This document shows positions 2,828 to 51,361 of a DNA stretch of 59,288 bases, in pieces. The DNA is from Clostridiales bacterium (lineage in GTDB: Bacteria > Bacillota > Clostridia > Lachnospirales > Lachnospiraceae). Every line of letters begins with the position of its first letter. Position 1 is the first letter of the stretch. A model generated the notes under the pieces. The model searched no databases and was not told the DNA's origin. It saw only the letters and a list, made by a program, of their open reading frames with translations. The DNA lies in the NCBI GenBank assembly GCA_020860715.1, contig JAJBTU010000002.1:1-59288 (forward strand), given 5' to 3'. Both the position numbers and the translations under genes were made by a program.

Positions 2828-2839
2828 CTGTATAGCAGG

Positions 2840-5275: not shown

Positions 5276-5304
5276 ATTGTAGCAAAAGAATCGGGCGGGC
5301 GCAA
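5276..5304 (-). promoter_or_regulatory. Putative mgtE promoter
   Basis: Read on the minus strand: TTGCGC (-35, 5304-5299), 17-base spacer, TACAAT (-10, 5281-5276). The -10 is good and the -35 is imperfect. Confidence 0.5.
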
Positions 5305-5334
5305 GCGGTTTTCTGAATTTTTGCAGATTTCCGA

Positions 5335-5363
5335 TTGATTCTTTCCGCTGTGTAAATTATAAT
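5335..5363 (+). promoter_or_regulatory. Promoter of aldo/keto reductase gene
   Basis: TTGATT (5335-5340), 17-base spacer, TATAAT (5358-5363), 55 bases before the start codon at 5418 and divergent from the mgtE promoter. Confidence 0.75.
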
Positions 5364-5417
5364 GGTCGAAGTGGGTCAACCGTTGATAATCATGGCGAAG
5401 GAGGAGAACAGAGGCCT

Positions 5418-6440: not shown

Positions 6441-6479
6441 TAAGAAAATTGTTTTAGTGAGCAGTGAGGATGAAAAGCG

Positions 6480-7410: not shown

Positions 7411-7516
7411 AGAAGGGCATGGCTCTTTGACAGGGATGGGTTTCAGAAAATCGTGCAGCCGCGAAGATACAAAACGACTGCGAACGGGAATATAAAATAA
7501 AATCGGAGTTTTCTAA

Positions 7517-8395: not shown

Positions 8396-8451
8396 CAGAA
8401 AATGGAAGCAAAGAAAAGCAGGATAAGATAGAAACAGGAGTCGGATTTACA

Positions 8452-34958: not shown

Positions 34959-36662
34959 ATGGGAGATCGGGATTATAACCCGCAGGAGCGGCGCGCACAA
35001 CGGCGGAAGCATGAGCTGATTATGAAATGCGTCATTTCCGTACTGGTACTTGCTGTGGTTGTTATGCTGGCTTTGCTGGTGAAGGAAGTGGCGATTCCGG
35101 AGATTGTGAAGCTGACGGCTCATGAGAAGAACAGCTCCTCTCTGAATGAAACAGCGGATGCAGGCATTCTTTTATCTGAGACGGAAGATAAAGACGGGGC
35201 AGAGACAGAAACTCTGACCGGGAACGCGGATGGCACAGCCGGGGAGGATGCGGAGAATACAGCCACCGCCGCCGAAGGCAGTACGGAGGACTCCGGCGGG
35301 GATTCCGATACGGTTTCTTCGGCGGAAGAGATGGAGATTGACGCGGTGCTGATGGAGGCGGAGACGCTTGCGGCCATGTATGACTATGACGAAGCAGTTG
35401 CGTGTGTGCAGGCTTCCGAGTATTATGAGACAAGTGAGCTGCTCCAGCAGGCGGCGGCCAGCTACGAGAAGACAAAAGCGGACTGCGTTTCCTGGTCGCC
35501 GGATGAGGTGACGCACATCTTTTTCCATATGATTATCTGGGACGCGGCGAAAGCATTTGACGGAGACCTCTACGCAGAAGGATACAACCAGTATATGGTG
35601 ACGATGGACGAGTTCTCGGCTATCATGCAGACCATGTACGACGAAGGCTATGTGATGGTCAGCATGCACGACATGTGTGAGGTGAACGAGGACGGCACGG
35701 TGACGCGTAAGGAGATCCTGCTGCCGGAAGGGAAGACACCGTTTGTGCTTTCACAGGATGATGTGAATTATTACCATTATATGGATGGAGACGGATTTGC
35801 ATCGCGGCTGGTCCTTGACGAAAACGGCGATGTCAAGGCGGAGTACCTGGAAGATGACGGTACGGTATCAGTGGGGGATTACGATCTGGTCCCGTGGATT
35901 GATACCTTTGTGGATCTGCATCCTGATTTTACCTACCATGGGCACAAAGGTACGATTGCCCTGACCGGTTACGAGGGAGTTCTGGGTTATCGGACGGATG
36001 AAGTCTATCTGACGCGGGATGAAGACCGTCTGACGAGCTGGCAGAAAGAATATCTGGAGGAAAATCCGGATTTTGATGAGGAAGCCTGGCAGAATGAGGT
36101 GGATTCTGCTGCGGCTGTCGCGGAAGCGCTGAAAGCGGACGGATGGGAGTTCGCAAGCCATACCTGGGGGCATATCGATCCGATCGCGAAAGGACTGGAA
36201 GGCCTGCAGACGGACACGGAGCGCTGGAAGAACAATGTTGAGACGATCGTCGGGGAGACGGATATCATTGTCTTTGCCTTTGGCGCGGATATCAGCGACT
36301 GGACGGAGTATTCCGAGGACAATGAGTATTATATTTATCTGAAAGAGCAGGGATATCATATTTTCTGCTGTGTGGATTCGACCCGGTACTGGGTGCAGTT
36401 TAATGGTACTTCCATGCGTATGGGCCGCAGGGATATCGACGGCTATCGTATGTATTACAATGCGGATTTGCTTTCAGATCTGTTCAATGTCAGTGATGTG
36501 TGGGATTCCCTGCGCCCGGATACGGTGGCGGAGCTCTCCGAATACGCCGGAACCATGAGCTCAGAGTACACGTCGAACTCCGGCAGTTCAGATTCCGAAT
36601 CCGCGGATTCGGCGGCTGATGCTGAAGAGCCGTCTTCAGAAACAGAAGAAACCGTTTCCTGA
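34959..36662 (+). CDS. Membrane-anchored polysaccharide deacetylase family protein
   Basis: 567 residues. A short basic cytosolic tail and one membrane helix (about 22-42) anchor it. A disordered Thr/Glu/Ala-rich stalk (50-125) follows, then a small helical region and a NodB-like domain from about 185. The NodB motif appears as LSQDDVNYYHY with the paired Asp, and the second motif as SHTWGH with the H-x3-H metal pair, so a metal-dependent N- or O-deacetylase is plausible. Long inserts separate the motifs, as in a divergent clostridial branch. The C-terminus is again Ser/Glu-rich. AAGGAGGG precedes the ATG. It probably trims acetyl groups on the wall or the glycan of this locus. Confidence 0.82.
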   Translation: MGDRDYNPQERRAQRRKHELIMKCVISVLVLAVVVMLALLVKEVAIPEIVKLTAHEKNSSSLNETADAGILLSETEDKDGAETETLTGNADGTAGEDAENTATAAEGSTEDSGGDSDTVSSAEEMEIDAVLMEAETLAAMYDYDEAVACVQASEYYETSELLQQAAASYEKTKADCVSWSPDEVTHIFFHMIIWDAAKAFDGDLYAEGYNQYMVTMDEFSAIMQTMYDEGYVMVSMHDMCEVNEDGTVTRKEILLPEGKTPFVLSQDDVNYYHYMDGDGFASRLVLDENGDVKAEYLEDDGTVSVGDYDLVPWIDTFVDLHPDFTYHGHKGTIALTGYEGVLGYRTDEVYLTRDEDRLTSWQKEYLEENPDFDEEAWQNEVDSAAAVAEALKADGWEFASHTWGHIDPIAKGLEGLQTDTERWKNNVETIVGETDIIVFAFGADISDWTEYSEDNEYYIYLKEQGYHIFCCVDSTRYWVQFNGTSMRMGRRDIDGYRMYYNADLLSDLFNVSDVWDSLRPDTVAELSEYAGTMSSEYTSNSGSSDSESADSAADAEEPSSETEETVS

Positions 36663-36748
36663 AAGCGTGACGGATATGGAAATACGGCATGGGCCGGACA
36701 CCGGGGCCTGCTGTGCCGGACAGGATAAAAAACAGACGGAGGAATGGT

Positions 36749-37831
36749 ATGAGAACGTATCTGGTAACAGGGGGAGCCGGGTTCATCGGTTCCAATTATA
36801 TTCACTATATGTTCCGCAAATACGGAGAAGAGATCCGCATCATCAATGTGGACAAGCTGACCTACGCGGGCAATCTGGAGAATCTGCGGGATGTGGAGAA
36901 CCGGCCGAATTATACATTTATCCGTGCGGATATCTGCGATTCGGCAGCGATCAACCGCGTTTTTGAAGAGAACGACATTGATCGTGTCGTGCATTTTGCC
37001 GCGGAAAGCCATGTGGACCGGAGCATCCGTGATCCGGAGATATTTGTGAAAACGAATGTGCTCGGTACACTCGTGATGCTGAATGCGGCGAAGGCTGCCT
37101 GGGAGCTGCCGGACGGCTCATTTAAGGAAGATAAAAAATTTCTTCATGTCTCGACGGATGAGGTGTACGGCTCGCTGGAGAACGAAGGGGAATATTTTTA
37201 TGAGACGACGCCTTATGCGCCCCACAGTCCGTATTCTGCAAGCAAAGCGTCTTCGGATATGCTGGTAAAAGCCTATATGGATACCTATCATTTCCCGGCA
37301 AATATCACCAACTGCAGCAACAACTACGGCCCGTACCAGTTCCCGGAAAAGCTGATCCCGCTGATCATCAACAATGCGCTGCAGGGCAAGCCGCTCCCGG
37401 TATACGGCGACGGAAAAAATGTCCGTGACTGGCTCTATGTGGAGGATCACGCGAAAGGCATCGACATGGTGCAGGAGAAAGGCCGTCTGTTTGAGACCTA
37501 CAACATCGGCGGACATAATGAGAAGCAGAACATCCAGATCATCCATATCATTCTGGATACCCTTAAGGAGATGCTGCCGGATGATGATCCGCGGAAAGCG
37601 CACATCAATGAAGACCTGATCACCTATGTGACGGATCGCAAGGGACATGACCGCCGCTACGCGATCGCGCCGGACAAGATCCGTGCTGAGGTTGGCTGGG
37701 AGCCGGAGACGAAGTTTGAGGACGGCATTCGGCTTACTATCCGCTGGTTTTTTGAACACGAGGACTGGATGGCGAACGTGACCAGCGGCGATTACCAGAA
37801 TTATTACGACGAGATGTATAAGAACCGCTGA
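36749..37831 (+). CDS. rfbB: dTDP-glucose 4,6-dehydratase
   Basis: 360 residues, short-chain dehydrogenase fold. The NAD motif GGAGFIG is at 8-14; the catalytic STDEVYG (Thr-Asp-Glu) and YSASKASSD (Tyr-x3-Lys) are intact. It converts dTDP-glucose to dTDP-4-keto-6-deoxyglucose, step 2 of dTDP-L-rhamnose synthesis. ATG 36749 follows ACGGAGGAATGGT; the open frame extends 20 codons upstream without need. rfbC follows, but rfbA and rfbD are not in this window. Confidence 0.96.
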   Translation: MRTYLVTGGAGFIGSNYIHYMFRKYGEEIRIINVDKLTYAGNLENLRDVENRPNYTFIRADICDSAAINRVFEENDIDRVVHFAAESHVDRSIRDPEIFVKTNVLGTLVMLNAAKAAWELPDGSFKEDKKFLHVSTDEVYGSLENEGEYFYETTPYAPHSPYSASKASSDMLVKAYMDTYHFPANITNCSNNYGPYQFPEKLIPLIINNALQGKPLPVYGDGKNVRDWLYVEDHAKGIDMVQEKGRLFETYNIGGHNEKQNIQIIHIILDTLKEMLPDDDPRKAHINEDLITYVTDRKGHDRRYAIAPDKIRAEVGWEPETKFEDGIRLTIRWFFEHEDWMANVTSGDYQNYYDEMYKNR

Positions 37832-37909: not shown

Positions 37910-38515
37910 TTGAGTACGATAAAAGCGGGAAAACTGACCGTGGAGACCTGCGTGGCTTACGGGACCGACGGAGTCGAGATCGAGGGCCTGAAGGTTATCA
38001 CACCGACCGTGTTCGGGGATGCGCGCGGTTATTTCATGGAGACTTACAACTATAACGATTTTAAGCTGGCGGGGATCGACCAGACCTTTGTGCAGGACAA
38101 TCAGTCCGCTTCCAGGAAAGGCGTGCTGCGCGGCCTTCATTTTCAGAAGCAGTTTCCGCAGGACAAGCTGGTGCGCGTGGTGAGCGGCAGGGTGTTTGAT
38201 GTGGCGGTCGATCTGAGGAAAGGTTCACCGACGTTTGGAAAATGGTTCGGCGTGGAACTTTCCGCGGAGAATAAAAAGCAGCTTTTTATTCCGAAAAATT
38301 TCGCTCACGGATTTCTGGTCCTCTCGGATCATGCGGAGTTTACTTATAAATGTACGGATTTCTACCATCCGGACGATGAGGGCGGCCTTCGCTATGATGA
38401 TCCGGAAATTGGCGTAGCATGGCCGATTCCGGAGGGAATGGAATTGATCATGACAGAGAAAGACCGCTGCTGGGGAACGCTGGCTGAATATGGAAAACAG
38501 CAGGACAGATCGTAA
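37910..38515 (+). CDS. rfbC: dTDP-4-dehydrorhamnose 3,5-epimerase
   Basis: 201 residues, cupin fold. Conserved LRGLHFQ (catalytic His region), RVVSGRVFDVAVDLRKGSPT and the tyrosine/Asp segment AEFTYKCTDFY are present. It epimerises C3 and C5 on the path to dTDP-L-rhamnose. The start is a TTG at 37910 with ACGGAGG 9 bases upstream. The N-terminus has about 25 extra residues before the conserved EGLKVITPTVFGDARGYF. The stop codon lies inside the dispersed palindrome at 38511. Confidence 0.94.
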   Translation: MSTIKAGKLTVETCVAYGTDGVEIEGLKVITPTVFGDARGYFMETYNYNDFKLAGIDQTFVQDNQSASRKGVLRGLHFQKQFPQDKLVRVVSGRVFDVAVDLRKGSPTFGKWFGVELSAENKKQLFIPKNFAHGFLVLSDHAEFTYKCTDFYHPDDEGGLRYDDPEIGVAWPIPEGMELIMTEKDRCWGTLAEYGKQQDRS

Positions 38516-38567: not shown

Positions 38568-39380
38568 ATGAAGGATATACTGACACTGGCGACGGATGTG
38601 GTTCATAGCCGCCGCATGATTTTAAAGCTTGCGAAAAATGATTTTCGAAAAAAATTCGCCGGCTCCTATTTTGGCTTTGTATGGGCATTTGTGCAGCCTG
38701 TGATTACGGTCCTGGTCTACTGGTTTGTGTTCGAGGTGGGATTCCGCTCCTCAGACACCTCCCTTCCGGTACCGTTTTTGCTTTATCTGGTAGCCGGTAT
38801 CGTGCCGTGGTTCTTTTTTCAGGATGCCTGGAACGGCGGGACGAACTCCCTGATCGACTACGACTATCTGGTGAAAAAGGTCGTCTTCAATATCAGTGTG
38901 CTTCCGATCGTGAAGATGGTGTCCGCTCTGTTTGTGCATCTGTTTTTTGTCATCTTTATCATTGTGCTTTACTGTTTTTACGGACATTATCCGACGGTTT
39001 ATTATCTGCAGCTGATTTATTATACGTTTGGATTGTCTTTGCTCACGCTCGGCCTGGTCTATATGACAAGCGCTGCGGCTGTTTTTGTCCGGGATCTGAC
39101 GCAGGTCATCAATATTATCCTGCAGGTAGGCGTGTGGATGACGCCGATCATGTGGGTGGCGGAGGAACGGCTGGTAAATTATCCGCTGCTCGCGAAGATC
39201 CTGAAGCTGAATCCGATCTATTATGCGGTAGCCGGATATCGGGATGCGTTCATCTATCATCACTGGTTCTGGGAGCGGCCGCTCTGGACGCTGTACTTCT
39301 GGTGTTTCACGATTGTGGTACTGCTGGTCGGACTCTGGTTTTTCCGCAAGATGCGCGCGCTCTTTGCGGACGTACTGTAA
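38568..39380 (+). CDS. ABC polysaccharide exporter permease (Wzm/TagG type)
   Basis: 270 residues with six membrane helices of the ABC-2 export family. Starts KNDFRKKFAGSYFGFVWAFVQP, the typical interface helix and first membrane segment. VWMTPIMW and the LNPIYYAVAGYRDAFIY loop near the end are hallmark residues of the Wzm/TagG/RfbA group. It forms the channel with the ATPase at 39393 and exports a lipid-linked glycan across the cytoplasmic membrane. Gap to the ATPase gene is 12 bases. Confidence 0.94.
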   Translation: MKDILTLATDVVHSRRMILKLAKNDFRKKFAGSYFGFVWAFVQPVITVLVYWFVFEVGFRSSDTSLPVPFLLYLVAGIVPWFFFQDAWNGGTNSLIDYDYLVKKVVFNISVLPIVKMVSALFVHLFFVIFIIVLYCFYGHYPTVYYLQLIYYTFGLSLLTLGLVYMTSAAAVFVRDLTQVINIILQVGVWMTPIMWVAEERLVNYPLLAKILKLNPIYYAVAGYRDAFIYHHWFWERPLWTLYFWCFTIVVLLVGLWFFRKMRALFADVL

Positions 39381-39392
39381 AAGGAGATTATT

Positions 39393-40670
39393 TTGGAGAA
39401 TCAGGCTGCGATCTGTTTGGATCATGTAACAAAAATATACCGGCTGTATGATAAGATCACCGACCGGCTGTTTGATACGCTGGGGCTTGCGCGGAAGAAA
39501 CGCTATCGGGAGCACTATGCGCTCCGGGATGTCAGCTTTACCGTGGAAAAGGGCGAGACCATCGGCATCATCGGTACGAACGGCGCCGGAAAATCAACGA
39601 TTCTGAAGATCATTACCGGCATATCGAGCCCGACATCCGGAAAGGTAACGGTGAATGGCCGGATTTCGGCGCTGCTGGAACTGGGCGCCGGATTTAATAA
39701 AGAGTATACCGGGATTGAAAATGTTTATCTGCAGGGGACGATTGCCGGGCTTTCTGATCAGGAGATTGAAGAACGGCTGCCGGCCATTCTGGAATTTGCC
39801 GACATCGGAGAATTTGCGAATCAGCCGGTCCGCACTTATTCAAGCGGCATGTTTGTGCGCCTGGCCTTTGCTGTGGCGATCAATGTGGATCCCGAAATTC
39901 TGATCGTGGATGAAGCGCTCTCGGTCGGGGATGTCTTTTTCCAGTCAAAATGCTACCGAAAATTCGAGGACTTTAAAAAGGCGGGGAAGACGATTCTTTT
40001 TGTCAGTCATGATCTGGGCAGCGTCAGCAAATACTGTGACCGTGTGGTATTACTGGATCACGGCGATGTCGCGGGGATTGGCTCCTCCAAGGACATGATT
40101 GACCTCTATAAGCAGCTTCTCGTGCATCAGGGACCTGACACAGTACAGAAAGCCTCCCTTTTGGACGGCGGTGAGAGCGCGGACGGAGAACCGCACTGGC
40201 TGGGACTGCAGGATATGAACCCGAACGCGCTGGAATACGGCGACCGCCGTGCGGAGATGATCGGTTTTATGGTGCTGGATGAAAACGGCCTGCCGACGAC
40301 AACGATCGAGAAAGGCTCCACCTTTACCATGAAGATACGGGCCCGGTATAATGAAGATATCATCGATCCGATTTTCGCGTATACGATCAAGGACACGCGC
40401 GGAACCGAGATCACCGGTACCAATACCATGTATGAGAGAACCGCAATTTTGCCCCCGAAAAAGGGGGATGTGGACGTTGTCTCTTTTACGCAGAAAGCGG
40501 ACCTGCAGGGGGGCGAATATCTGATCTCTTTTGGACTGACCGGCTATGACGGATGCGATTTTGTCGTCTATCACCGATTGTACGATGTGTGCGGTCTGGC
40601 AGTAGTGTCCGCGAAAAATACGGTCGGCTTTTACGATATGAACTCGGAGATTACAGTCGAGCGGGAGTGA
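39393..40670 (+). CDS. ABC polysaccharide exporter ATPase with C-terminal Wzt domain
   Basis: 425 residues. The ATPase part (1-245) has Walker A GTNGAGKST (61-69), signature YSSGMFVRLAFA, Walker B ILIVDEALSVGD and the H-loop VSHDLGS. Residues about 270-420 form a beta-sandwich-like Wzt C-terminal domain (IGFMVLDENGLPTTTIEKGS, then GGEYLISFGL). In O-antigen systems such as E. coli O9a, this domain binds the modified non-reducing end of the finished chain and licenses export. TTG start at 39393 with AAAGGAGA just before. It is followed by a methyltransferase-kinase fusion, which fits that scheme. Confidence 0.93.
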   Translation: MENQAAICLDHVTKIYRLYDKITDRLFDTLGLARKKRYREHYALRDVSFTVEKGETIGIIGTNGAGKSTILKIITGISSPTSGKVTVNGRISALLELGAGFNKEYTGIENVYLQGTIAGLSDQEIEERLPAILEFADIGEFANQPVRTYSSGMFVRLAFAVAINVDPEILIVDEALSVGDVFFQSKCYRKFEDFKKAGKTILFVSHDLGSVSKYCDRVVLLDHGDVAGIGSSKDMIDLYKQLLVHQGPDTVQKASLLDGGESADGEPHWLGLQDMNPNALEYGDRRAEMIGFMVLDENGLPTTTIEKGSTFTMKIRARYNEDIIDPIFAYTIKDTRGTEITGTNTMYERTAILPPKKGDVDVVSFTQKADLQGGEYLISFGLTGYDGCDFVVYHRLYDVCGLAVVSAKNTVGFYDMNSEITVERE

Positions 40671-40680
40671 ATGTCTGCGC

Positions 40681-42564
40681 GTGTCTGCGGTGGATGTTGA
40701 GGCAGACAGCTATGGCAGAGTGACCGGAAATATGGATGTGGAGCACTGGAAAATGACATCGGAAATGATCGGCAGGGTAAAATTAAATCTTGATTTCTAT
40801 CCGGGGGAGGATCTTTACAGCGACGGCGAGATTGAGAAGAAGCTGCTGCAGCTTGTGAAGGATCATACGGAAGAAGAACTTGACCAGGTCATTCGCGAGG
40901 AGGCTGACTGGGCGGTTCTGTATCATCTTTCTCATATCCGGCAGAACATTGTCGGCGGACTGAGCCTGAATCCGGATGCCAGAGTGCTGGAGATCGGCTC
41001 CGGCTGCGGCGCGGTCACGGGCGCTCTCTCCATGCAGGCGGGAAGTGTCACCTGCGTGGATCTGTCTCTGCAAAGAAGCCGCATCAATGCTTACCGGAAC
41101 CGGGAGCGGGACAACATCGAGATTCTGGTCGGCAACTTTCAGGACATTGAAAACAGCCTGGGACAGTATGACTGCATCACGCTGATCGGCGTGTTTGAAT
41201 ACGGCGCCTCCTATATTCAGGCGGCGGATCCGTATGTGGAATTTTTGCGGATCATCAGAAAGCATCTGGCTCCGGGCGGGAAGATCGTCATGGCAATCGA
41301 GAACCGGTTTGGCATGAAATACTTTGCAGGCTGTCAGGAGGATCATTTCGGCAAATATTTTGAAAGTATCGAAGGCTATACAACGACTGCCGGTGTGAAG
41401 ACATTTTCCCGGAAAGAACTGGAGAAGATGTGCGCCGGGGCCGGTCTTGATCAGGTAAACTTCTATTATCCGTATCCGGATTATAAACTCCCGTTTCAGG
41501 TTTTTTCGGATGAGCGGCTGCCCAAAGTGGGGGAACTGACGACGAATCTGCGTAATTTTGATCGGGAACGGATGCTCCTTTTTGATGAAAAAAAAGCGTT
41601 TGACAATGTGATACGGGAGGGAATGTTCCCGTTTTTTTCTAATTCTTATCTTTTGGAAATCAAAGAAGCGCCCCATCAGGAGGATTCGGCAGCTGCGGAT
41701 GAGAATCAGAATCCGGTTATTTACAAAAAATATTCCAATGACCGAGCACGGGAGTTCTCCATCTGTACGCAGCTTTGCATGGAAAACGGGGAGCAGGTTA
41801 TCCGCAAAGAGGCAGCGTTCCCGGAAGCGATCGGGCACATCCGCAGCCTGCCGCAAAAAGGAGAGGCGCTGCGTAAGCAATATGCGGGTTCACAGCTTGT
41901 CATCTGTCCGAGCACAGAAAAGGAAGGGACTGTGATAAGTCCGTTTGTGAGCGGAAGAACGCTGGAGGAGATTGCGGATGAGGGGATTGAGACCGGACAG
42001 TATGAAAAGACGGAGACCATAATCCGCAGGCTCATTGCGCTGATCTGGGAACGAAACGCGGATCAGCCGTTCCGGATGACGGAGGCGTTTGCCGGGGTGT
42101 TCGGCCCGGCGGCGTTCACGGGAAACATGCATGCCGGCAGCGTCAGCGATATTGATATGGTACTGGGGAATATCATAGTGAATACTGCGGACACCTCTCC
42201 GGAATGGACTCTGATCGATTATGAGTGGACATTCGATTTTCCGGTGCCTACTGAATTTATTATTTACCGGATGTTGCACTATTATTTTGAGACAGCGGGA
42301 AGCCGTCAGGTTCTGAAAGACAGAGATTATCTGGAACTGTCAAAAGAGGATGAGCAGACGTTCCGGCAGATGGAGAACCATTTTCAGCAGTACATCAACG
42401 GTTCGCATGTTCCGATCCATCTGCTTTATCCGGTGATGGGAAAGCCGGCTGTTGATATGAGAGCGTTGATGGAGAGCGGAGAATTCAGGAAAACGCCCTT
42501 TCGCAGGACTCTGGGGAAGATCACATCGCCCATTTTAAGGCATTTCGCACGGGGTGCCGACTGA
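40681..42564 (+). CDS. Methyltransferase-kinase fusion, possible glycan capping enzyme
   Basis: 627 residues. An N-terminal class I SAM methyltransferase has motif I LEIGSGCGAVTG at 103-114, an acidic VDLS at 126-129 and GGKIVMAIENRFG near 199-211. From about 345 a kinase-like fold follows: VIRKEAAF with a candidate ATP-binding Lys (376), hinge-like ISPFVSGRTLEEI (419-431), catalytic-loop-like DIDMVLGN (Asp490/492, Asn497) and metal-site LIDYEW (Asp513). This order resembles WbdD, which methylates and phosphorylates the end of O9a chains, although sequence similarity cannot be tested here. GTG start; the ribosome binding site is weak. It sits directly after Wzm/Wzt. Confidence 0.75.
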   Translation: MSAVDVEADSYGRVTGNMDVEHWKMTSEMIGRVKLNLDFYPGEDLYSDGEIEKKLLQLVKDHTEEELDQVIREEADWAVLYHLSHIRQNIVGGLSLNPDARVLEIGSGCGAVTGALSMQAGSVTCVDLSLQRSRINAYRNRERDNIEILVGNFQDIENSLGQYDCITLIGVFEYGASYIQAADPYVEFLRIIRKHLAPGGKIVMAIENRFGMKYFAGCQEDHFGKYFESIEGYTTTAGVKTFSRKELEKMCAGAGLDQVNFYYPYPDYKLPFQVFSDERLPKVGELTTNLRNFDRERMLLFDEKKAFDNVIREGMFPFFSNSYLLEIKEAPHQEDSAAADENQNPVIYKKYSNDRAREFSICTQLCMENGEQVIRKEAAFPEAIGHIRSLPQKGEALRKQYAGSQLVICPSTEKEGTVISPFVSGRTLEEIADEGIETGQYEKTETIIRRLIALIWERNADQPFRMTEAFAGVFGPAAFTGNMHAGSVSDIDMVLGNIIVNTADTSPEWTLIDYEWTFDFPVPTEFIIYRMLHYYFETAGSRQVLKDRDYLELSKEDEQTFRQMENHFQQYINGSHVPIHLLYPVMGKPAVDMRALMESGEFRKTPFRRTLGKITSPILRHFARGAD

Positions 42565-42588: not shown

Positions 42589-44490
42589 ATGAAGAATCCG
42601 ACAAACCAGTCAATCAATAAGAGCCGGCGGGCAGATGGCAAGGCCATGCTGAAAAAGCTGCTTGCCAGAAATACGGCGACGGAGCGGTGGGGCAGGCGGC
42701 TGAATGCCTTTCGAAAGGGGGAGCGGCACTGTCTGTGGAAAAAATCTCCTCAGAAAGCGGCGGCGATCCTCTGTCCTGCAAAGGAGTTCCAAAAGCAGAG
42801 GAATACAGAATTCCCGCGCAGGATCCTTGTCAGCATCGCTGTGCCGCTTTATAATACGCCGGTGGATTATTTAAAAGAGATGATCACTTCCGTGCAGCTG
42901 CAGTCTTATGAAAACTGGGAACTGATTCTGGCGGACGGCAGCGATGAGCAGCATGGTGAGGTACAGGCTGTCTGTGAAAAGTGCATGGCGTCGGACGGAC
43001 GGATCCGCTACAAAAAGCTGTCCGAAAACCGCGGTATTTCCGGAAATACAAATGCCTGCCTTGACATGGCTTCGGGCGAATACATTGCGCTGCTTGATCA
43101 CGATGATTTTCTGCATCCCTCCGCGCTGTTTGAAGCGGTAAAAGCAATCTGTGAGCAGAATGCAGATTATGTCTATACGGACGAGGCGGCATTTCTGGAC
43201 GGCAATATATTCGATATCAGCCTCAGACACTGCAAGCCGGATTATGCCATTGATAATCTGCGCGCGAACAATTACATCTGTCATTTTTCCGTGTTTTCCG
43301 CGCAGCTTCTTAAGAAAACAGGAGGTTTCCGGACGGAGTTTGACGGCAGCCAGGATTTTGACCTGATCCTGCGCCTGACCGAACAGGCAAAAAAGGTATT
43401 CCATGTGCGGAAGATCCTGTATTTCTGGCGTTCTCATCCGGCTTCCGTGGCGTCGGACATCAGCGCCAAGCCCTATGCGGCTGACGCGGCGAGAAGGGCG
43501 GCAGAGGCACACCTTGCGAGGTGCCATATGGATGCCAGAGTGACGCGCACCGACGCCTTTCCGGCGATTTTCCGCATCCGTTACGCACTGAATGCTCACC
43601 CGAAGATTTCTATTCTCATACCGAACAGGGATCACAGCGGTGATCTGCGGACCTGCGTCCGCTCGATTCTGGAAAAATCAACTTATGACAATTATGAGAT
43701 CCTTATTATAGAGAACAACAGCGCATCAAAGGAGACGTTTGCCTGCTACCGGCAGCTTGAAAAAGAGAAACAGGTGCGCGTTCTGGAATACAGGGAAGCA
43801 GCTGTCCGCCGGAATCCGCTGGATCAGAATACAGACCCCGTTGCTGCCTGGGAGTTCAATTTTGCAAGACTCAATAATTTTGCGGCAAAAGAGGCGGCGG
43901 GAGAGTTTCTGCTGCTTTTGAATAACGATACAGAGGTTATCACGCCCGCGTGGATGGAGGAACTTCTGATGTATGGACAGCGGCCGGATGTGGCCGCGGT
44001 GGGAGCGAAACTTTACTATGGTGACGACACGGTGCAGCATGCCGGCATTGTGATCGGCCTGGGGGCGGACCGCGCGGCCGGGCACAGCCATTATGGCATG
44101 AGGCGTGAGGAGGTCGGTTATATGGGACGTCTGTGCTACGCACAGGATGTCTCCGCCGTGACCGGAGCATGCATGCTGGTCAAAAAGAGTATTTATGAGG
44201 ATCTCGGAGGCCTGGACGAGAGGTTTGCCGTGGCCTATAATGACGTTGATTTCTGTCTGAAGGCGCGTGAAAAAGGGTATCTGAATGTGTTTACACCGTT
44301 TAGTGAGCTGTATCACTATGAATCCCGCTCCAGAGGATATGAGGAAGGCGGGGAGAGAAAGAGGCGCTTTCAGCAGGAGGCGGCTTTGTTTAAAGAAAAA
44401 TGGGCGGAAGTGATTCAGAAGGGCGATCCTTATTACAGCCCGTATTTTTCTCTGGACCGCGCAGATTTTTACGTGGAAAGAAGAATTTAA
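42589..44490 (+). CDS. Tandem-domain GT2 glycosyltransferase
   Basis: 633 residues with two GT-A (GT2) domains. The first begins ILVSIAVPLYNTP (about 80) with the sugar-nucleotide DHDD at about 165-168. The second begins ISILIPNRDHSGD (about 342) with LLNNDTE, then the acceptor/QHAG region and a DVDFCLKAREKGY signature. Probably a processive or bifunctional rhamnosyl/hexosyl transferase of the rhamnan/teichuronic type, acting at the cytosolic membrane face. It is a paralogue of the next gene with the same order. The start ATG has AAGAGAATG context; AAGGTAAGAAGAG is the likely site. Confidence 0.9.
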   Translation: MKNPTNQSINKSRRADGKAMLKKLLARNTATERWGRRLNAFRKGERHCLWKKSPQKAAAILCPAKEFQKQRNTEFPRRILVSIAVPLYNTPVDYLKEMITSVQLQSYENWELILADGSDEQHGEVQAVCEKCMASDGRIRYKKLSENRGISGNTNACLDMASGEYIALLDHDDFLHPSALFEAVKAICEQNADYVYTDEAAFLDGNIFDISLRHCKPDYAIDNLRANNYICHFSVFSAQLLKKTGGFRTEFDGSQDFDLILRLTEQAKKVFHVRKILYFWRSHPASVASDISAKPYAADAARRAAEAHLARCHMDARVTRTDAFPAIFRIRYALNAHPKISILIPNRDHSGDLRTCVRSILEKSTYDNYEILIIENNSASKETFACYRQLEKEKQVRVLEYREAAVRRNPLDQNTDPVAAWEFNFARLNNFAAKEAAGEFLLLLNNDTEVITPAWMEELLMYGQRPDVAAVGAKLYYGDDTVQHAGIVIGLGADRAAGHSHYGMRREEVGYMGRLCYAQDVSAVTGACMLVKKSIYEDLGGLDERFAVAYNDVDFCLKAREKGYLNVFTPFSELYHYESRSRGYEEGGERKRRFQQEAALFKEKWAEVIQKGDPYYSPYFSLDRADFYVERRI

Positions 44491-44538: not shown

Positions 44539-46458
44539 TTGGGTACTGTGATCCGGTTTATAAAAAAACTGAATTTTTACAACATCAGCAAAGGCTTGAA
44601 GTACCTGCGCCATTTTGGCGTAAAGGAATTTCTGATCCGTCTGTCTGACCGTGTGGAGCCGGATGAGGTGCCCTACGGACCCTGGTATGAGAAACACCGG
44701 GCGAATGAGGAGGAACTCAAAAGGCAGAGCATGAGAAAGTGGAAGGATCCGGTGCTCATCAGCATTGCGGTGCCGCTTTATCGGACCCCGCCGGTCTTTC
44801 TGGAACAGATGATCGATTCTGTGAAAGCACAGTCTTACCCGTACTGGGAACTGTGTCTTGCAAACGGCAGTCCGGAGGATGAGGCGCTCACGGCGGCTCT
44901 TGCCCGGTATGAATCGGAGCCGCAGATCCGTGTACAGACACTGACGGAAAATCTGGGAATCGCCGGCAACACAAACGCGGCGATAGAGATGGCAAAAGGC
45001 GATTACATCGGCCTGCTTGACCACGATGACCTGCTTGCACCGGATGCGCTTTATGAGGTGGCGGACGCGATCACGCGGTGCGGCAAAGGCGAGGCGGGCA
45101 CGAAGCAGGGAGCAGAGAGGGCGAACAAATCGGCGGGTCATGGAGGCATCCCGGAGCTGATTTATACGGATGAGGATAAAGTGGAGTCTGATTTAAGCCG
45201 GCATTTTCAGCCGAACCTGAAGCCGGATTTTTCACCGGATCTGCTTCGCTCGAACAACTACATCTGTCATTTTCTGGTATTTGCCCGCACATTATACGAA
45301 AAAGTCGGCGGCTTCGACAGCCGGTACGATGGGGCGCAGGATCATGATTTCATCCTGCGGTGCACGGAAAAGGCGGACGGTATCTGCCACATTCCACGTA
45401 TCCTTTATCACTGGCGGGTTTCGGCAAAGTCCACGGCGGACAACCCGACAAGCAAGGAATACGCCTACGAGGCGGGGGTGCGCGCGGTGGAGGCGCATCT
45501 TGAACGCTGCGGCCTGAAGGGTGAGGTCACCCGAAAAAAGGATTTTGGCTTTTACCGCATTAAATATGAAGTGACCGGGGAGCCGCTTGTCTCCGTTGTT
45601 ATACCCAACAAAGATGAGACGGAGACCCTGAAAACATGCCTGAATTCGATTTTCGAGAAAACAGCCTGGAAGAATTTTGAGATCATCATTGTCGAAAACA
45701 ACAGCGAAACAAAGGAAATTTTTGATTATTATAAAGAAATAGATGGACGAAACGGTATTCATGTTGTATATTATGAGAAGACTGATTCGCCGAACGCTCC
45801 GGAATCTGGCGGGGGATTTAATTATTCCGCGGTCAATAATTTCGGGATCCGCCATGCGAAGGGGGATTACATCCTGTGCATGAACAATGACATGGAGGTC
45901 ATTTCCCCGGACTGGATGACGGAACTTCTGGGGCATTGCACACGTCCGGACACGGGCGTTGTGGGAGCCAGGCTGTATTATCCGGACGACACGATACAGC
46001 ATGCTGGGATCGTGATCGGTATCGGCGGGGTAAGCGGCGTGGCGGGAAATGTGTTTGTCGGCCTGAAGCGCGGGCATACCGGATATATGCACCGGGAATC
46101 CCTGCAGCAGGATTTAAGCGCTGTGACGGCGGCCTGTATGATGTTCCGCCGGGAAGCGTATGACGCGGTGGGAGGCTTTGAGGAAAAGCTGGCCGTGGCA
46201 TTTAATGATGTGGATTTCTGCCTGAAAGTGAGAGAGGCCGGATATCTGGTTGTCTACGACCCTTACGCGGAACTGTATCACTGCGAATCAAAAACGCGGG
46301 GAGCGGAGGATACAGATGTAAAGGCCAGACGCTTCCAGCGCGAACTGGAATATATGAGGACCCGCTGGATCCGGATTCTGAAGGAAGGCGATCCCTATTA
46401 TAACAGGAACCTTTCCCTGACCAAATGGAATTATTCCCTGCGGGGGGATGCGTCCTGA
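44539..46458 (+). CDS. Tandem-domain GT2 glycosyltransferase (paralogue)
   Basis: 639 residues, same architecture as the preceding gene. Domain 1 has LISIAVPLYRTPPVFLEQMI and LLDHDDLLAPDALYE; domain 2 has LVSVVIPNKDETETLKTC, CMNNDMEVISPDWM, IQHAGIVIGIGG and FNDVDFCLKVREAGY. A Lys/Gly/Glu-rich insert at about 190-205 is specific to this copy. TTG start at 44539 with GCGGGAGG 8 bases upstream. The two genes probably arose by duplication and could add alternating linkages in the repeat unit. Confidence 0.9.
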   Translation: MGTVIRFIKKLNFYNISKGLKYLRHFGVKEFLIRLSDRVEPDEVPYGPWYEKHRANEEELKRQSMRKWKDPVLISIAVPLYRTPPVFLEQMIDSVKAQSYPYWELCLANGSPEDEALTAALARYESEPQIRVQTLTENLGIAGNTNAAIEMAKGDYIGLLDHDDLLAPDALYEVADAITRCGKGEAGTKQGAERANKSAGHGGIPELIYTDEDKVESDLSRHFQPNLKPDFSPDLLRSNNYICHFLVFARTLYEKVGGFDSRYDGAQDHDFILRCTEKADGICHIPRILYHWRVSAKSTADNPTSKEYAYEAGVRAVEAHLERCGLKGEVTRKKDFGFYRIKYEVTGEPLVSVVIPNKDETETLKTCLNSIFEKTAWKNFEIIIVENNSETKEIFDYYKEIDGRNGIHVVYYEKTDSPNAPESGGGFNYSAVNNFGIRHAKGDYILCMNNDMEVISPDWMTELLGHCTRPDTGVVGARLYYPDDTIQHAGIVIGIGGVSGVAGNVFVGLKRGHTGYMHRESLQQDLSAVTAACMMFRREAYDAVGGFEEKLAVAFNDVDFCLKVREAGYLVVYDPYAELYHCESKTRGAEDTDVKARRFQRELEYMRTRWIRILKEGDPYYNRNLSLTKWNYSLRGDAS

Positions 46459-46543
46459 GGGCGCGGAAGCCGATGCGGACGGACTGTGGTTCAGCCATGC
46501 GGCGGGACATCGGACAGAGGCGGTTCCACGGGAGCTGAACGAT

Positions 46544-47566
46544 ATGCAGACTGCAACGATAGTAATACCGAATCTGAACGGGATGCGCTACTTAGGCCCG
46601 TGCCTGGATTCCCTGACACGGCAGACCCGGAAAGACTTTTCGGTAATTCTGATCGACAATGGCTCGCAGGATGAAAGTGTAGATTTTGTCAGAAAGCAGT
46701 ATCCGGAAGTGACGGTGTGCTGCTTTGATGAAAATAGAGGTTTCTGCGCCGCGGTGAATGAGGGGATCCGCCGCTCTGATACGCCGTATGTGATTCTTTT
46801 GAACAATGACACAGTCTGTGAAGAGGACTTTGTTGAAGAACTGGTGCGCGCCATGGAGACGCCGTCTCATGCTGCTTCGGCGGCAGTACGCAGCCGTGGT
46901 ATGCGCCGCCCGGCCGGTATGGGAAGGCCGGAAGTTTTTTCCTGCGCGGCGAAGATGGTGCAGATGGATGCGCCGGACCGGATGGACAATGCCGGGGATT
47001 ACTATTGCGCGCTTGGCTGGGCCTATGCCGTTGGGAAAGGAAAGCCGGCTGCGGATTATGACCGGAGAAGAGAAATCTTTTCTTCCTGTGCGGCTGCCGC
47101 GATTTACCGCCGCGAGGTATTTGACGAGATCGGCCTGTTTGATGAGACGCATTTTGCGTATCTGGAGGACACCGATATCGGATATCGGGCGCAGATAGCG
47201 GGATACCGCAATTATTACGAGCCGAAAGCGGTCGTCCGGCATGTCGGCAGCGCGACCAGCGGTTCCGTGTACAATGCGTTTAAGACCCGCTGTTCGGCCA
47301 GAAATAATCTATATCTGATCTATAAAAATATGCCCTGGGTGCAGATTGTTCTGAATTTGCCGTTTCTGCTGCCCGGATTTTTGATAAAAATGTTCTTTTT
47401 TGCGGCAAAGGGGTTTTTGAGGGAGTATGTCACGGGGCTGAAAGAAGGAGTGTCCTGCTGCCGCCGTGATAAAAAAATGAGATTTCAGTGGAGGCATTTC
47501 GGATCCTATGTCCGGATACAGCTTCTGCTGTGGGTGAATCTGTTCCGCCGGCTTGCGGATTTCTGA
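46544..47566 (+). CDS. GT2 glycosyltransferase, membrane-associated
   Basis: 340 residues. One GT-A domain: TIVIPNLNGMRYLGPCLDSL, LIDNGSQDES, FDENRGFCAAVNEGI and LLNNDTVCEEDF, with EDTDIGYRAQIAGY in the acceptor region. A hydrophobic C-terminal stretch (IVLNLPFLLPGFLIKMFFF) probably anchors it. WbbL-like rhamnosyltransferases share this layout. ATG 46544 gives the expected N-terminus; an open in-frame extension begins at 46448 inside the previous gene and was rejected as less likely. Upstream GGGAG is a weak site. Confidence 0.88.
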   Translation: MQTATIVIPNLNGMRYLGPCLDSLTRQTRKDFSVILIDNGSQDESVDFVRKQYPEVTVCCFDENRGFCAAVNEGIRRSDTPYVILLNNDTVCEEDFVEELVRAMETPSHAASAAVRSRGMRRPAGMGRPEVFSCAAKMVQMDAPDRMDNAGDYYCALGWAYAVGKGKPAADYDRRREIFSSCAAAAIYRREVFDEIGLFDETHFAYLEDTDIGYRAQIAGYRNYYEPKAVVRHVGSATSGSVYNAFKTRCSARNNLYLIYKNMPWVQIVLNLPFLLPGFLIKMFFFAAKGFLREYVTGLKEGVSCCRRDKKMRFQWRHFGSYVRIQLLLWVNLFRRLADF

Positions 47567-47663
47567 GCGGATGCCGGCAGGGGAGCAGCACCGCCGTTCG
47601 AATGCGCGCTGTTCATTCTGATGCGCTGCGCGCGGGGCGGTGTCTGGTACAGGAGGCGTTTTT

Positions 47664-49061
47664 TTGAAGGAAAATGAAAAATATTTCAACCGCCTTCAGG
47701 TGATACTGGATGCGATTGTGATTATCTTCTCCTATCTGGTGGGCTGGTATGTCATGATCTTAAGCACCAGAAAAGGCGGAGTGGGCGTACTGCCGCGTGA
47801 AATTTATATTATGGCACTTGTCGCGATTGTGCCTGTTTTTTTGCTGCTCTATTATGCGTTCAGTCTTTATGAACCCAACCGCCTTGAAGGCAGACGCCGG
47901 GAAGGCAGCAATATCTTAAAGGCCAATGCGGTGGGCGGGCTGCTTCTGATGGCGGTGCTCTTCCTGATTCGCCAGATGGATATTTCCCGTATGCTGCTTG
48001 GCGTATTTCTGACGCTGAATGTGACGCTGACGATTCTGGAGCGCAATATTATCCGGCTGCTTTTGATGCGTGCACGCAAGCTGGGCCTGAACCAGAGACA
48101 CATTCTTCTGGTCGGATACAGCCATGCTGCGGAGGAATACATTGACCGCATTGTGGCGAATCCGCAGTGGGGCTATCATGTGCTGGGGATCTTAAGCGAC
48201 GACACAAAGCCGGGCACGCTTTATAAGGGGGCGGAGATCCTGGGGCCGATCAGCTCTCTGACGGAACTTTTACAAAATCATACGCCCGATGAGATCGCGA
48301 TCACAGTGGGATTAAGTGAGTATTACAAACTGGAACGCATCGTTGCGATGTGTGAAAAATCCGGCGTCCACATTAAATTCATTCCGGACTACAGCAATAT
48401 CATTCCTACAAAACCCTATACGGAAGACATTCTGGGACTTCCTGTGATCAACATCCGTCACGTCCCTCTTTCCAATACATTTAATTCTTCAATGAAACGG
48501 ATGGTCGATATCGTCGGTTCCATCTTCTGCATTCTGCTTTTTTCACCGGTCATGCTGGTTACGGCATTTCTGATCAAAACGACGTCAAAAGGACCGCTGA
48601 TTTTTTCACAGGAGAGGGTCGGACGCCACAATAAGCCGTTCCGGATGTACAAATTCCGCTCGATGGAGCAGCAGTCGGAAGAAGACGAACAGAAAGGCTG
48701 GACCACGAGAAATGATCCGAGAGTGACCACGGTCGGGAAATTCATCCGGCGGACCAGCATTGACGAAATGCCTCAGTTTTTCAATGTCCTGAAAGGGGAC
48801 ATGTCTCTGGTCGGGCCGCGCCCGGAGCGCCCGCAGTTTGTAGAGAAATTCCGGGAGGAGATTCCGCGGTACATGGTCAAGCATCAGGTACGGCCGGGTA
48901 TGACCGGATGGGCGCAGGTGCATGGCTACCGCGGCAATACATCCATTCGAAAGAGGATTGATTATGATCTGTATTATATTGAGAACTGGACCATGAGCCT
49001 CGATATCAAGATTTTGGTAATGACGGTATTCCGGGGCTTTGTAAATAAAAACGCATACTGA
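47664..49061 (+). CDS. Polyprenyl-phosphate glycosylphosphotransferase (WcaJ/CpsE type)
   Basis: 465 residues. Four N-terminal membrane helices, a central CoA-binding-like domain (RHILLVGYSHAAEEYIDRIV), one more hydrophobic segment (MVDIVGSIFCILLFSPVML), then the cytosolic catalytic domain with GPLIFSQERVGRHNKPFRMYK, RRTSIDEMPQFFNVLKGDMS and VGPRPERP. It transfers a sugar-1-phosphate (commonly glucose) to undecaprenyl phosphate, starting the glycan. TTG 47664 was chosen with AGGAGG 7 bases upstream. Confidence 0.95.
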   Translation: MKENEKYFNRLQVILDAIVIIFSYLVGWYVMILSTRKGGVGVLPREIYIMALVAIVPVFLLLYYAFSLYEPNRLEGRRREGSNILKANAVGGLLLMAVLFLIRQMDISRMLLGVFLTLNVTLTILERNIIRLLLMRARKLGLNQRHILLVGYSHAAEEYIDRIVANPQWGYHVLGILSDDTKPGTLYKGAEILGPISSLTELLQNHTPDEIAITVGLSEYYKLERIVAMCEKSGVHIKFIPDYSNIIPTKPYTEDILGLPVINIRHVPLSNTFNSSMKRMVDIVGSIFCILLFSPVMLVTAFLIKTTSKGPLIFSQERVGRHNKPFRMYKFRSMEQQSEEDEQKGWTTRNDPRVTTVGKFIRRTSIDEMPQFFNVLKGDMSLVGPRPERPQFVEKFREEIPRYMVKHQVRPGMTGWAQVHGYRGNTSIRKRIDYDLYYIENWTMSLDIKILVMTVFRGFVNKNAY

Positions 49062-49100: not shown

Positions 49101-50396
49101 TTGGCAAAGAATACAAACGGAACCCGAAACCGCGGGGGTCAGGGAAGCAGCATGGACGGAAATTCATATTACGGACAACAGGGATACGACCAAAACGGCA
49201 GCTATGGCTATGGGCAGCCGGATGCGCAGGAAGGTCCGAGTTATTACGGGCCGCAGGGGAATGGTTATGGCCAGCAGGGGAATTACTACAACCAGCAGGA
49301 TAATTTTCAGGGCAGCTACGGAGGCGGATATTACGGCGCTCCGGGAGATGACCGGCAGGAAAGGAGCCGCCAGGGAGCGATGGCAAAGAAGAAGAAAAAG
49401 AAGAAACTTTTGTGGATACCGGCTATATTGATTTTGCTGATCGCGGCGGTTGGGATTTTTGGCGCGGCGATGCTTGGGAAACTGGACCGGCAGAAACTGT
49501 CGGATATTCTGATTAACAGCGGGGTGTCGGAGGACGGCTACCGGAATATCGCTATCTTTGGCGTGGATTCCCGCGAGGGTGAGCTGGAGAGCGGTACCCG
49601 GACCGATACGATCATCATTGCGAGCATCAACAAAAAGTCAGGGGATATAAAACTGGTCTCGGTATACCGGGATACGTATCTGGATAATACAGACGGCGTA
49701 TACCGCAAGGCGACGGAGGCATACGCCAACGGCGGGGCAAGTCTGTCCGTCAATATGCTGAATAAGAATCTCGATCTTGATATCGAGGATTATGTCACGG
49801 TGGATTTTGAAGCTGTAATTGAAGTGGTGGATGAGCTCGGCGGCGTGGAAGTAACGCTGGACGATGAGGAAGTATACTGGCTGAATGCGTATCTGGTGGA
49901 AACTTCGGAAGTGACCGGCCGTTCTTATACGGAAGTGACATCGGCGGGGACCCAGACGCTGACCGGCATTCAGGCGATGGCGTACTGCAGGATCCGTTAC
50001 ACAACCGGCTGGGATTATAAGAGAACCGAGCGGCAGAGAACGGTGCTGTCGCAGATTCTGGTGAAAGCGCAGCAAAAGGGTGTCACGGGAGTGATCTCCG
50101 TGGTAAATAACATGCTGCCTTATATTTACACGAGTCTGGACAATACTGAACTGATCTCTCTGGCAACCGGCATTGCAAAATACAATATCGTCGATTCCCA
50201 GGGCTTCCCGTTTGAGAATACGACGGCGATCATCTCATCCGCGGACTGCGTGGTTCCGCAGACTCTGGCGAGCAATGTAACGGAACTGCATGAGCTGCTG
50301 TATGACGATACGGATTATACCGTTTCTTCGACAGTGCAGGAGATCAGTGACTACATTTCCTCCGTGACGGGGGGTATATTAAAGGAGGCATCATGA
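49101..50396 (+). CDS. LytR-CpsA-Psr (LCP) family glycopolymer ligase with Q/G/Y-rich N-terminus
   Basis: 431 residues. Residues 1-95 are a cytosolic low-complexity arm rich in Gly, Gln, Tyr and Asn (NGYGQQGNYYNQQDNF and similar). A Lys run and one membrane helix follow (LLWIPAILILLIAAVGIFGA), then the outer LCP domain: FGVDSREGELESGTRTDTII, VYRDTYLDN and RYTTGWDYKRTERQR, whose Arg/Asp residues bind the pyrophosphate lipid. LCP enzymes attach polyprenyl-linked glycans to peptidoglycan. TTG start with AAAGGGGA before. The stop overlaps the next gene's ATG by 4 bases, so the two are translationally coupled. Confidence 0.93.
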   Translation: MAKNTNGTRNRGGQGSSMDGNSYYGQQGYDQNGSYGYGQPDAQEGPSYYGPQGNGYGQQGNYYNQQDNFQGSYGGGYYGAPGDDRQERSRQGAMAKKKKKKKLLWIPAILILLIAAVGIFGAAMLGKLDRQKLSDILINSGVSEDGYRNIAIFGVDSREGELESGTRTDTIIIASINKKSGDIKLVSVYRDTYLDNTDGVYRKATEAYANGGASLSVNMLNKNLDLDIEDYVTVDFEAVIEVVDELGGVEVTLDDEEVYWLNAYLVETSEVTGRSYTEVTSAGTQTLTGIQAMAYCRIRYTTGWDYKRTERQRTVLSQILVKAQQKGVTGVISVVNNMLPYIYTSLDNTELISLATGIAKYNIVDSQGFPFENTTAIISSADCVVPQTLASNVTELHELLYDDTDYTVSSTVQEISDYISSVTGGILKEAS

Positions 50397-51361
50397 GCCC
50401 GACGATCGATGTGGTGATTCCGACCTACAGGCCGGATGAACACTTTCGGGAAGTGCTTCAAAAGCTGATGCGCCAGAGCAGGCCGCCCCGTCAGATTCTG
50501 CTGATCAACACGGAAAAAGAGATGTTTGATGAGAAGCTGCTGGAAGGTCTGAATGATGCGGAGCCTGCGTCGTGCATCTGCGATGCACGACCTGAGATTC
50601 GGGTCGTGCACATTCGAAAGATGGAATTTGATCATGGCGGAACCCGTCACATGGCAGCCAAAATGCTGGACGGAGACATGATCCTCTTCATGACGCAGGA
50701 CGCGATGCCGGAGAACAGCCATTTAATTGAATGTCTGCTGAGACCTTTTGAGGATCCGCAGGTATGCGTATCTTACGCGCGCCAGCTTCCCGGAAAGGAC
50801 TGTACGCTGCTGGAGAGTTATACACGGAGTTTTAATTATCCGGCTCAAAGCCGCGTTAAGACAGCGAAAGACCTGGATGAACTGGGGATCAAGACTGCGT
50901 TCTGCTCCAACGTCTGTGCGATGTACCGCAGGAGTGCCTATGAAGAGTACGGCGGATTTGAGCGGCATACGATTTTTAATGAGGATATGATTTTTGCAGG
51001 GAAGCTGATCCTGGCCGGGAAAGCGGTGGCATATTGCGCGGATGCGGAAGTCATTCATTCGCACAATTACAGTGGGAGAACACAGTTTCACCGAAATTTT
51101 GATCTGGGCGTTTCCCAGGCGGAACACCCGGAGATTTTTGCCGCTGCAAGCTCGGAAAGGGAAGGCGTACGGCTGATTCAGAAGACGGCCGGATACCTGT
51201 TAAAAAAAAGAAAGCCGTGGTTTCTGGTTCCCCTGATCTGGCAGAGCGGCTGTAAATATCTGGGATATCGCCTCGGAAAGAATTTCCGGCGTTTGCCGGC
51301 CGGGATTGTGCGTGCGTGTTCTCTGAATAAGGATTACTGGAATATTCCCCATGGCAGATGA
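50393..51361 (+). CDS. GT2 glycosyltransferase (rhamnosyltransferase-like)
   Basis: 322 residues. GT-A fold with IDVVIPTYRPDEHFREVLQKL, EFDHGGTRHMAAKM, LFMTQDAMP (DxD-type) and IFNEDMIFAGKLILAGK with HSHNYSG. This pattern is shared with RfbN/RgpB-like rhamnosyltransferases. ATGA overlap with the LCP gene shows tight coupling. It uses a nucleotide sugar, plausibly the dTDP-rhamnose made partly by RfbB/RfbC here. It is the last gene of the locus; no clear terminator was seen before htrA. Confidence 0.9.
   Translation: MSPTIDVVIPTYRPDEHFREVLQKLMRQSRPPRQILLINTEKEMFDEKLLEGLNDAEPASCICDARPEIRVVHIRKMEFDHGGTRHMAAKMLDGDMILFMTQDAMPENSHLIECLLRPFEDPQVCVSYARQLPGKDCTLLESYTRSFNYPAQSRVKTAKDLDELGIKTAFCSNVCAMYRRSAYEEYGGFERHTIFNEDMIFAGKLILAGKAVAYCADAEVIHSHNYSGRTQFHRNFDLGVSQAEHPEIFAAASSEREGVRLIQKTAGYLLKKRKPWFLVPLIWQSGCKYLGYRLGKNFRRLPAGIVRACSLNKDYWNIPHGR

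Follow-up and report, generated by a model that had tools for sequence, protein, structure and literature searches.

The closest described systems pair glycan capping with ABC export. In Escherichia coli O9a and Klebsiella O3, WbdD combines a methyltransferase with a kinase and is encoded beside Wzm and a Wzt with a reader domain; its kinase is described as eukaryote-like, its acceptor as mannose, and a coiled coil as its ruler (PMC3482155). ORF6 of Klebsiella pneumoniae O7 belongs to another ABC-transporter system, with a rhamnose chain and GT2 modules, and consists of a methyltransferase followed by an unannotated APH-type kinase; it is reported to perform phosphorylation and methylation on a single acceptor, and the same polypeptide carries an Ig-like CBM, a coiled coil again regarded as a ruler, and two GT2 modules (PMC11231755). 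Capping followed by Wzm/Wzt export has also already been proposed in a Gram-positive, for the S-layer rhamnan of Geobacillus stearothermophilus, where WsaE forms a 2-O-methyl cap, a hexose-1-phosphate primer enzyme is present, and the glycan is passed to the S-layer protein by a predicted oligosaccharyltransferase (PMC2943079). No kinase is named for that system, and we liken WsaE to the present enzyme by description.

The window (the whole 59,288-nucleotide stretch analyzed here, from a Clostridiales bacterium of the Lachnospiraceae) places a fused methyltransferase–kinase beside Wzm and a Wzt with a reader domain in a Gram-positive, as the initial annotation had observed (Table 1).

Table 1. 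Coordinates of the glycan export locus and neighboring genes in the window.
Feature	Position	Strand	Evidence
rmlB, dTDP-glucose 4,6-dehydratase	36689..37831	+	TIGR01181 485 bits (cut-off 365)
rmlC, dTDP-4-dehydrorhamnose 3,5-epimerase	37910..38515	+	PF00908 E 1.4e-73; TIGR01221 above cut-off
Wzm, ABC-2 permease of glycan exporter	38568..39380	+	PF01061 E 2.8e-11
Wzt, ATPase with C-terminal putative cap-reading domain (residues 279–416)	39393..40670	+	PF00005, PF14524 E 2.1e-37
Methyltransferase (residues ~30–332) fused to APH-type kinase (~345–600)	40681..42564	+	catalytic set D492, N497, D513
Glycosyltransferase, GT2 modules 82–201 and ~338–581, candidate polymerase part	42589..44490	+	PF00535, PF13641
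Glycosyltransferase, GT2 modules 75–181 and ~351–586, candidate polymerase part	44539..46458	+	PF00535, PF13641
GT2 glycosyltransferase	46448..47566	+	PF00535 E 2.8e-27
WcaJ-type lipid-primer hexose-1-phosphate transferase	47640..49061	+	TIGR03023 503 bits (cut-off 411)
LytR-CpsA-Psr (LCP) glycopolymer transferase, candidate ligase	49101..50396	+	PF03816 E 5.8e-35
GT2 glycosyltransferase	50393..51361	+	PF00535 E 1.4e-13

We propose, with a probability of roughly 0.7, that the window enzyme is a shortened O7-type terminator. The neighboring GT2 enzymes would build a lipid-linked glycan; the APH-like kinase half would phosphorylate its non-reducing terminal sugar, probably rhamnose, and the methyltransferase half would then add a methyl group to the terminal phosphate. 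This methyl-phosphate would halt chain growth and would be read by the Wzt C-domain, leading to export of the chain through Wzm/Wzt, after which an LCP enzyme would probably join it to the wall. The cap-and-export logic, already suggested by the initial annotation, gains support from the predicted fold, from homology to a protein of O7 layout, from gene order, and from co-occurrence with one score group of reader domains.

The homology extends through both domains: the window protein matches proteins of the O7 layout at E 2.4e-50 and 4.8e-48 over 493 and 487 columns. The link to O7 ORF6 itself is drawn from residue numbers and layout, by way of a Pseudomonas homologue that carries GT2 modules, and in which a beta-sandwich and a coiled coil were judged by eye. 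The published SAM-site and catalytic residue numbers of O7 are identical in the Pseudomonas protein, save D443 for D441 (compared with PMC11231755), and the published residues align in the window family, E112 corresponding to D127 of the window protein. Unlike O7 ORF6 as described, the window protein has the kinase as its last domain, its GT2 proteins are encoded as separate genes, and its host is a Gram-positive with LCP enzymes. The two glycosyltransferases with paired GT2 modules match the C-terminal glycosyltransferase part of the Pseudomonas terminator ORF (phmmer E 4.5e-117 and 1.1e-139, in gene order). By our evidence, the closest studied relative of the window enzyme is Klebsiella O7 ORF6 rather than E. 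coli WbdD.

Domain order and position beside Wzm/Wzt are alike in WbdD, and true orthology, with a kinase of the same lineage, would account for both. We give this hardly any weight and reject it: BLASTP against WbdD of E. coli HS yields E 0.15, hhalign aligns only 79 columns of the SAM core, and between the kinase halves it returns E 0.12 over 17 columns, that is, no detectable homology. The initial description of the protein as WbdD-like may therefore hold for function, but not for family. The hhalign alignment spans WbdD residues 52–135, and so does not include the phosphate-methylation residues Y16 and R203. It does include H132 and H133, described as needed for phosphate methylation by WbdD, and pairs them with the window residues E173 and Y174; the phosphate site would therefore differ from that of WbdD.

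The C-terminal half had been predicted to be kinase-like, and its modeled structure bears this out. It was modeled alone because fold comparison of the whole protein matched mostly methyltransferases, and it adopts an APH-type fold; the WbdD structure is not among the 50 fold matches listed for either model, which excludes nothing. No Pfam or NCBIfam model matches this half. Searches of PDB sequences with family profiles gave weak kinase signals for two profiles (JAK1, E ~9e-4 with A1 and 0.034 with A4) and none for A2; we do not take such signals as proof of a kinase. In the family alignment, D492, N497, E515, and W516 are invariant in 61/61 sequences, together with the SAM-site residues. K376 is conserved in 58/61 (R or H in the two Gram-negatives, possibly misaligned), and D513 is replaced by E in a Citrobacter sequence, whose gene has no DNA match in E. 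coli genomes.

It is conceivable that each half has a task of its own: the methyltransferase would methylate a sugar hydroxyl as in WsaE or O8 WbdD while the kinase would phosphorylate elsewhere or be silent, so that the cap would be an O-methyl group and not methyl-phosphate. The two halves are separate genes in 15/80 related loci, and in locus L056 of Roseburia hominis An869 these genes are neighbors. The WbdD histidine pair is not conserved, Geobacillus offers a described case of Wzm/Wzt export with a methyl-only cap, and the O8 Wzt reader, which serves a methyl-only cap, is not clearly outside the reader group discussed below. The joint retention of kinase and SAM-site residues in all 61 sequences and the reported action of the O7 enzyme on one acceptor nonetheless make this unlikely.

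The O7-type terminator proposed here would lack a ruler. The window protein, 627 aa long, stops ~25 residues past the kinase and has neither a coiled coil nor a beta-sandwich or Ig-like CBM in this region; by crude criteria, 61/80 relatives have a candidate Ig-like CBM motif after the kinase, and 11/80 have a coiled coil (heptad score). This bears on the initial suggestion that the locus may control glycan length by a rule similar to that of WbdD. The missing ruler would also suit an enzyme that decorates sugars along the chain, with the Wzt domain reading something else. We consider this quite improbable, since the enzyme is linked to a single reader score group and, in 71/80 loci, has a Wzt-like ORF no more than 300 bp away.

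As for conservation of the three-gene block, which the initial annotation proposed as a check, 61/80 related loci carry a similar permease together with an adjacent Wzt. rmlB or rmlC is found in 35/41 loci with full flanks. In the phylum tally, 212/299 match, mostly through a short SAM core, and 10/299, including the window's genome, reach E 1e-20.

The window Wzt C-domain scores 128.7 bits against PF14524 (cut-off 30.4), and the protein shares 38% identity with the O9 Wzt of E. coli HS over 429 columns that include the reader domain (E 7e-92), although the latter exports LPS in a Gram-negative. The capping enzyme co-occurs with one score group of Wzt reader domains, counted at 82 places in 79 genomes (84 were taken, two of them above the E limit), with score limits chosen after the scores had been seen, and leaving out weak rows and most of those that listed the kinase half of a locus separately; joint inheritance within an operon can alternatively give rise to such co-occurrence. 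In one locus (L131), the Wzt near the enzyme has a length of 258 aa, which leaves no room for a fused reader. Among low-scoring Wzt loci, 32 places lay above the cut-off, and 20 of these were retrieved. Two of them (L142 and L151) offered hardly any sequence downstream; a crude search found a methyltransferase-like next gene in 3/18 of the remainder.

In the full tree, one kinase-linked reader on a long branch (Bac_L129), which BLAST does not match to the reader of the window, falls outside the kinase-linked group, the rest of which is supported at 88/85; this and two other long-branch rows (W_L142, W_L143) were removed from later trees. Adding the O8 Wzt lowers support for the reader group to 86/78. 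Against the C-domain data, the ATPase grouping is rejected (p 0.028), but against the ATPase-domain data the kinase-linked clade of the C-domain grouping is not (p 0.316), the groups having been named only once the trees had been seen; a reader-domain swap therefore stays suggestive.

Handing the exported chain to the LCP enzyme, as initially envisaged, is compatible with the LCP gene in the window locus and with a genome that has no Wzy_C or SLH match, but LCP genes are rare in related loci. They occur in the fetched flanks of only 4/80 (1/41 among those with full flanks), and an LCP gene was not found to be a conserved part of the locus. The window has such a gene in the same stretch, as do L031, L032, L035, and L104. 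The genome has four LCP (PF03816) matches, including the one listed in Table 1. That the cap logic holds while the polymer is set free, or is anchored by a different LCP enzyme, is therefore a real possibility, albeit clearly the less probable one given the LCP gene in these stretches and the missing Wzy_C and SLH matches.

The combination had initially been thought undescribed. The Geobacillus proposal removes that claim for Gram-positive capping with Wzm/Wzt as such, but we found no description of a kinase-bearing capping enzyme in Gram-positives in the open-licence literature, and little on the termination and export of Lachnospiraceae wall-glycan chains. Members of this family are major gut commensals. 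One of their wall glycans, the glucorhamnan of R. gnavus, is described as immunologically active.

We tentatively extend the O7-type reading beyond the window, while leaning somewhat against its full breadth: methyl-phosphate may cap a wall or surface glycan in about half of the sampled Lachnospiraceae-family genera, the Wzt C-domain subtype may predict the chemistry of the cap in two phyla, also for capping enzymes that are not related to each other (O7-type and WbdD), and some lineages, including that of the window, may have dropped the ruler. If so, chain length in these lineages must be set by export kinetics or by another partner, and the ruler-less form in the window would allow one to ask whether capping by itself fixes chain length. 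A kinase missed by Pfam and NCBIfam models would then be a common end-capping enzyme in Lachnospiraceae, its rare end group may escape NMR of such glycans, and the Wzt reader domain would offer a sequence test for cap type.

The permease, the Wzt ATPase and the methyltransferase fusion, all named by Pfam, are encoded by three neighboring genes in the same direction, as the initial annotation had described. The second half of the 627-aa protein had no Pfam or NCBIfam match at the limits used. The block follows rmlB and rmlC, and beyond it come two double-GT2 proteins and a GT2, then a primer enzyme of the WcaJ type, an LCP protein, and a further GT2. The genome resembles those of Lachnospiraceae: the nearest named locus, L031 in a Lachnospiraceae MAG (76% identity in the best segment), is surrounded by a series of ORF sizes that matches the window, with an LCP match at the corresponding place. 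We conclude that the window locus is a real operon; its unannotated enzyme is of a known kind, found here in shortened form and in a new setting. L031 also has a 570-aa ORF in the position of the window's 567-aa ORF, for which a polysaccharide deacetylase-like protein would be a guess from sequence.

Coordinates of the features discussed
Feature	Sequence	Position	Strand	Remark
567-aa ORF directly 5' of rmlB	window	34959-36662	+	hydrophobic stretch near N-terminus; no Pfam/NCBIfam match
Wzm-type ABC-2 permease	window	38568-39380	+	Pfam
ABC ATPase with Wzt C-terminal domain	window	39393-40670	+	Pfam, E 2.1e-37
627-aa protein	window	40681-42564	+	class I methyltransferase in first half (Pfam)
Start region of 627-aa ORF	window	40681-40756		GTG start may be wrong; later in-frame ATGs match homolog starts better
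Second Wzm/Wzt exporter	contig C1, same genome (L132)	4554-8785		Wzt C-terminal domain of lower-scoring group
Wzt beside kinase-linked locus	L129, another Bacillota family	1970-3409		very long branch
Wzt near enzyme	L131, other Bacillota	2807-3580		258 aa, too short for fused C-domain

The enzyme had been called WbdD-like. Against the 708-aa WbdD of the E. coli HS O9 locus, our yardstick, the profile alignment covers 79 columns of the SAM core only (E 3.1e-5), the kinase halves do not align (17 columns, E 0.12), and BLASTP gives E 0.15. H132 and H133 of WbdD, both required for phosphate methylation (PMC3482155), correspond in the profile alignment to E173 and Y174. The window enzyme may therefore work as WbdD does, but these comparisons do not place it in the WbdD family; a WbdD-type terminator is described from Citrobacter youngae (PMC11127046).

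A closer likeness is to ORF6, the Klebsiella O7 terminator, called distinct from WbdD in the accessible text of the O7 study (PMC11231755). That text gives its layout as a methyltransferase, an unannotated 223-residue domain resembling the kinase AmiN, an Ig-like module (CBM), a coiled coil, and two rhamnose-adding GT2 modules; ORF6 phosphorylated a mimic of the repeat unit and methylated it in part, and D441A abolished modification. A protein search of plasmid records returned six, of which those of Citrobacter braakii pF217-3 and Pseudomonas asturiensis pCC1524 were strong; profile matches of the window family to these two proteins cover both halves (E 4.8e-48 and 2.4e-50). On pCC1524, a permease and an ATPase precede a 1457-aa protein with methyltransferase, kinase, and GT2 modules and, judged by eye, a beta-sandwich-like stretch and a coiled coil. 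The O7 SAM-site residues Y28, Y66, G91, G93, E112, and Y158 bear the same numbers in this protein, and catalytic D441 is its D443; each of these positions meets a conserved column in the window family (D or E at E112), a link made through published residue numbers and the Pseudomonas protein rather than the O7 sequence.

Some relatives of the window enzyme share the single-chain O7 layout, such as that at L032 (1356 aa; methyltransferase, kinase, beta-sandwich-like motif, coiled coil, GT2 part), whereas the window protein and its L031 counterpart have neither CBM nor coiled coil. The absence of this putative ruler leaves control of glycan length by a ruler unsupported. The combination had also been put forward as one not known from earlier work. 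Capping with Wzm/Wzt export was, however, already proposed for the Gram-positive Geobacillus stearothermophilus, where WsaE joins a methyltransferase to two GTs, the cap is 2-O-methyl rhamnose, and the role of Wzt is predicted (PMC2943079, in the portion available). Among the open-licence papers listed in our searches, none described a kinase-bearing Gram-positive terminator, and the accessible O7 text names orthologs in alphaproteobacteria, gammaproteobacteria, and cyanobacteria and a homolog in Methanoculleus, with none from Gram-positives.

Across 150 genomes of the family, some enzyme match occurs in 85 at E 1e-3 and in 79 at E < 1e-15. A scan of named genomes gave 80 loci, kept among the matches listed, and the following counts hold among those matches. 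The two halves are fused in 65/80 and are neighboring genes in the other 15; 71 have a Wzt-like ORF no more than 300 bp away (68 full length), with a permease as well in 61. Of the nine remaining loci, four start too close to the edge of their contig; the other five have upstream sequence, in which three show a Wzt at a distance of 1.5 to 2.5 kb and two showed none. Rhamnose genes occur in 35/41 fully flanked loci, and a window-type GT2 protein follows or is fused in 59/78. In a tree of 26 rows, one branch (100/100) splits the Lachnospiraceae-type form from the Gram-negative and other-Bacillota form. The methyltransferase-kinase, whole or in part, is also encoded in three records from human faeces that are filed without annotation as "Bacteriophage sp." (MT836085.1, MT839147.1, and MT836982.1), with identities of 43-44% for two and 32% for one; these are either bacterial contigs filed in error or copies carried by phage.

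Cap reading by Wzt has been described (PMC9445017), and here the enzyme and the reader domain occur together. Wzt C-terminal domain matches in the 150 genomes separate into a high group, from 120 bits up, and a lower group: all 77 high-group genomes have the enzyme, none of the 15 lower-group-only genomes does, and two (G076, G090) have it without a high-group reader (Fisher p 3.5e-41, with score limits fixed after seeing the scores and genomes that are related, though each of a different genus). At 61 of 82 enzyme places a high-group domain on the same strand ends within 700 bp upstream; at the 18 judgeable among 20 fetched of 32 lower-group places, no enzyme lies within 6 kb downstream. The second exporter of the window's own genome provides an inner contrast in cap type and reader type: its Wzt is followed by a 714-aa GT4-methyltransferase fusion, then more GT4s and a pyruvyl transferase. 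Outside its own group, the window reader scores best by BLAST with Pseudomonas (58.5 bits), Citrobacter (55.1), and O9 and the L130 locus (52.0 each); O8 follows with 44.7, and the lower group reaches at most 43.5. L129 is an exception to the pairing, its reader having no BLAST match to that of the window; L131 is possibly an enzyme without a fused reader. In the full tree, which has 47 rows, the remaining kinase-linked readers group (88/85); without three long rows, L129 included, kinase-linked readers form one side (100/99), and with the O8 reader added support is 86/78. The ATPase domains tend to a different grouping (92/92), with a kinase-linked clade not rejected (p 0.316).

The suggested hand-over of the glycan to LCP is compatible with what the genome encodes. 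The genome has four LCP matches, and searches of it for Wzy_C and SLH gave no match, which favors LCP attachment; among the matches listed, however, LCP occurs in the fetched flanks of only 4/80 loci, and in 1/41 with full flanks.

On pF217-3 (L111), an insertion sequence separates four dTDP-rhamnose genes from the permease gene wzm, behind which lie the ATPase, the terminator (649 aa), and three GTs. The plasmid is typed as conjugative, and a terminator locus on such a plasmid offers a route for moving exporter loci of this kind.
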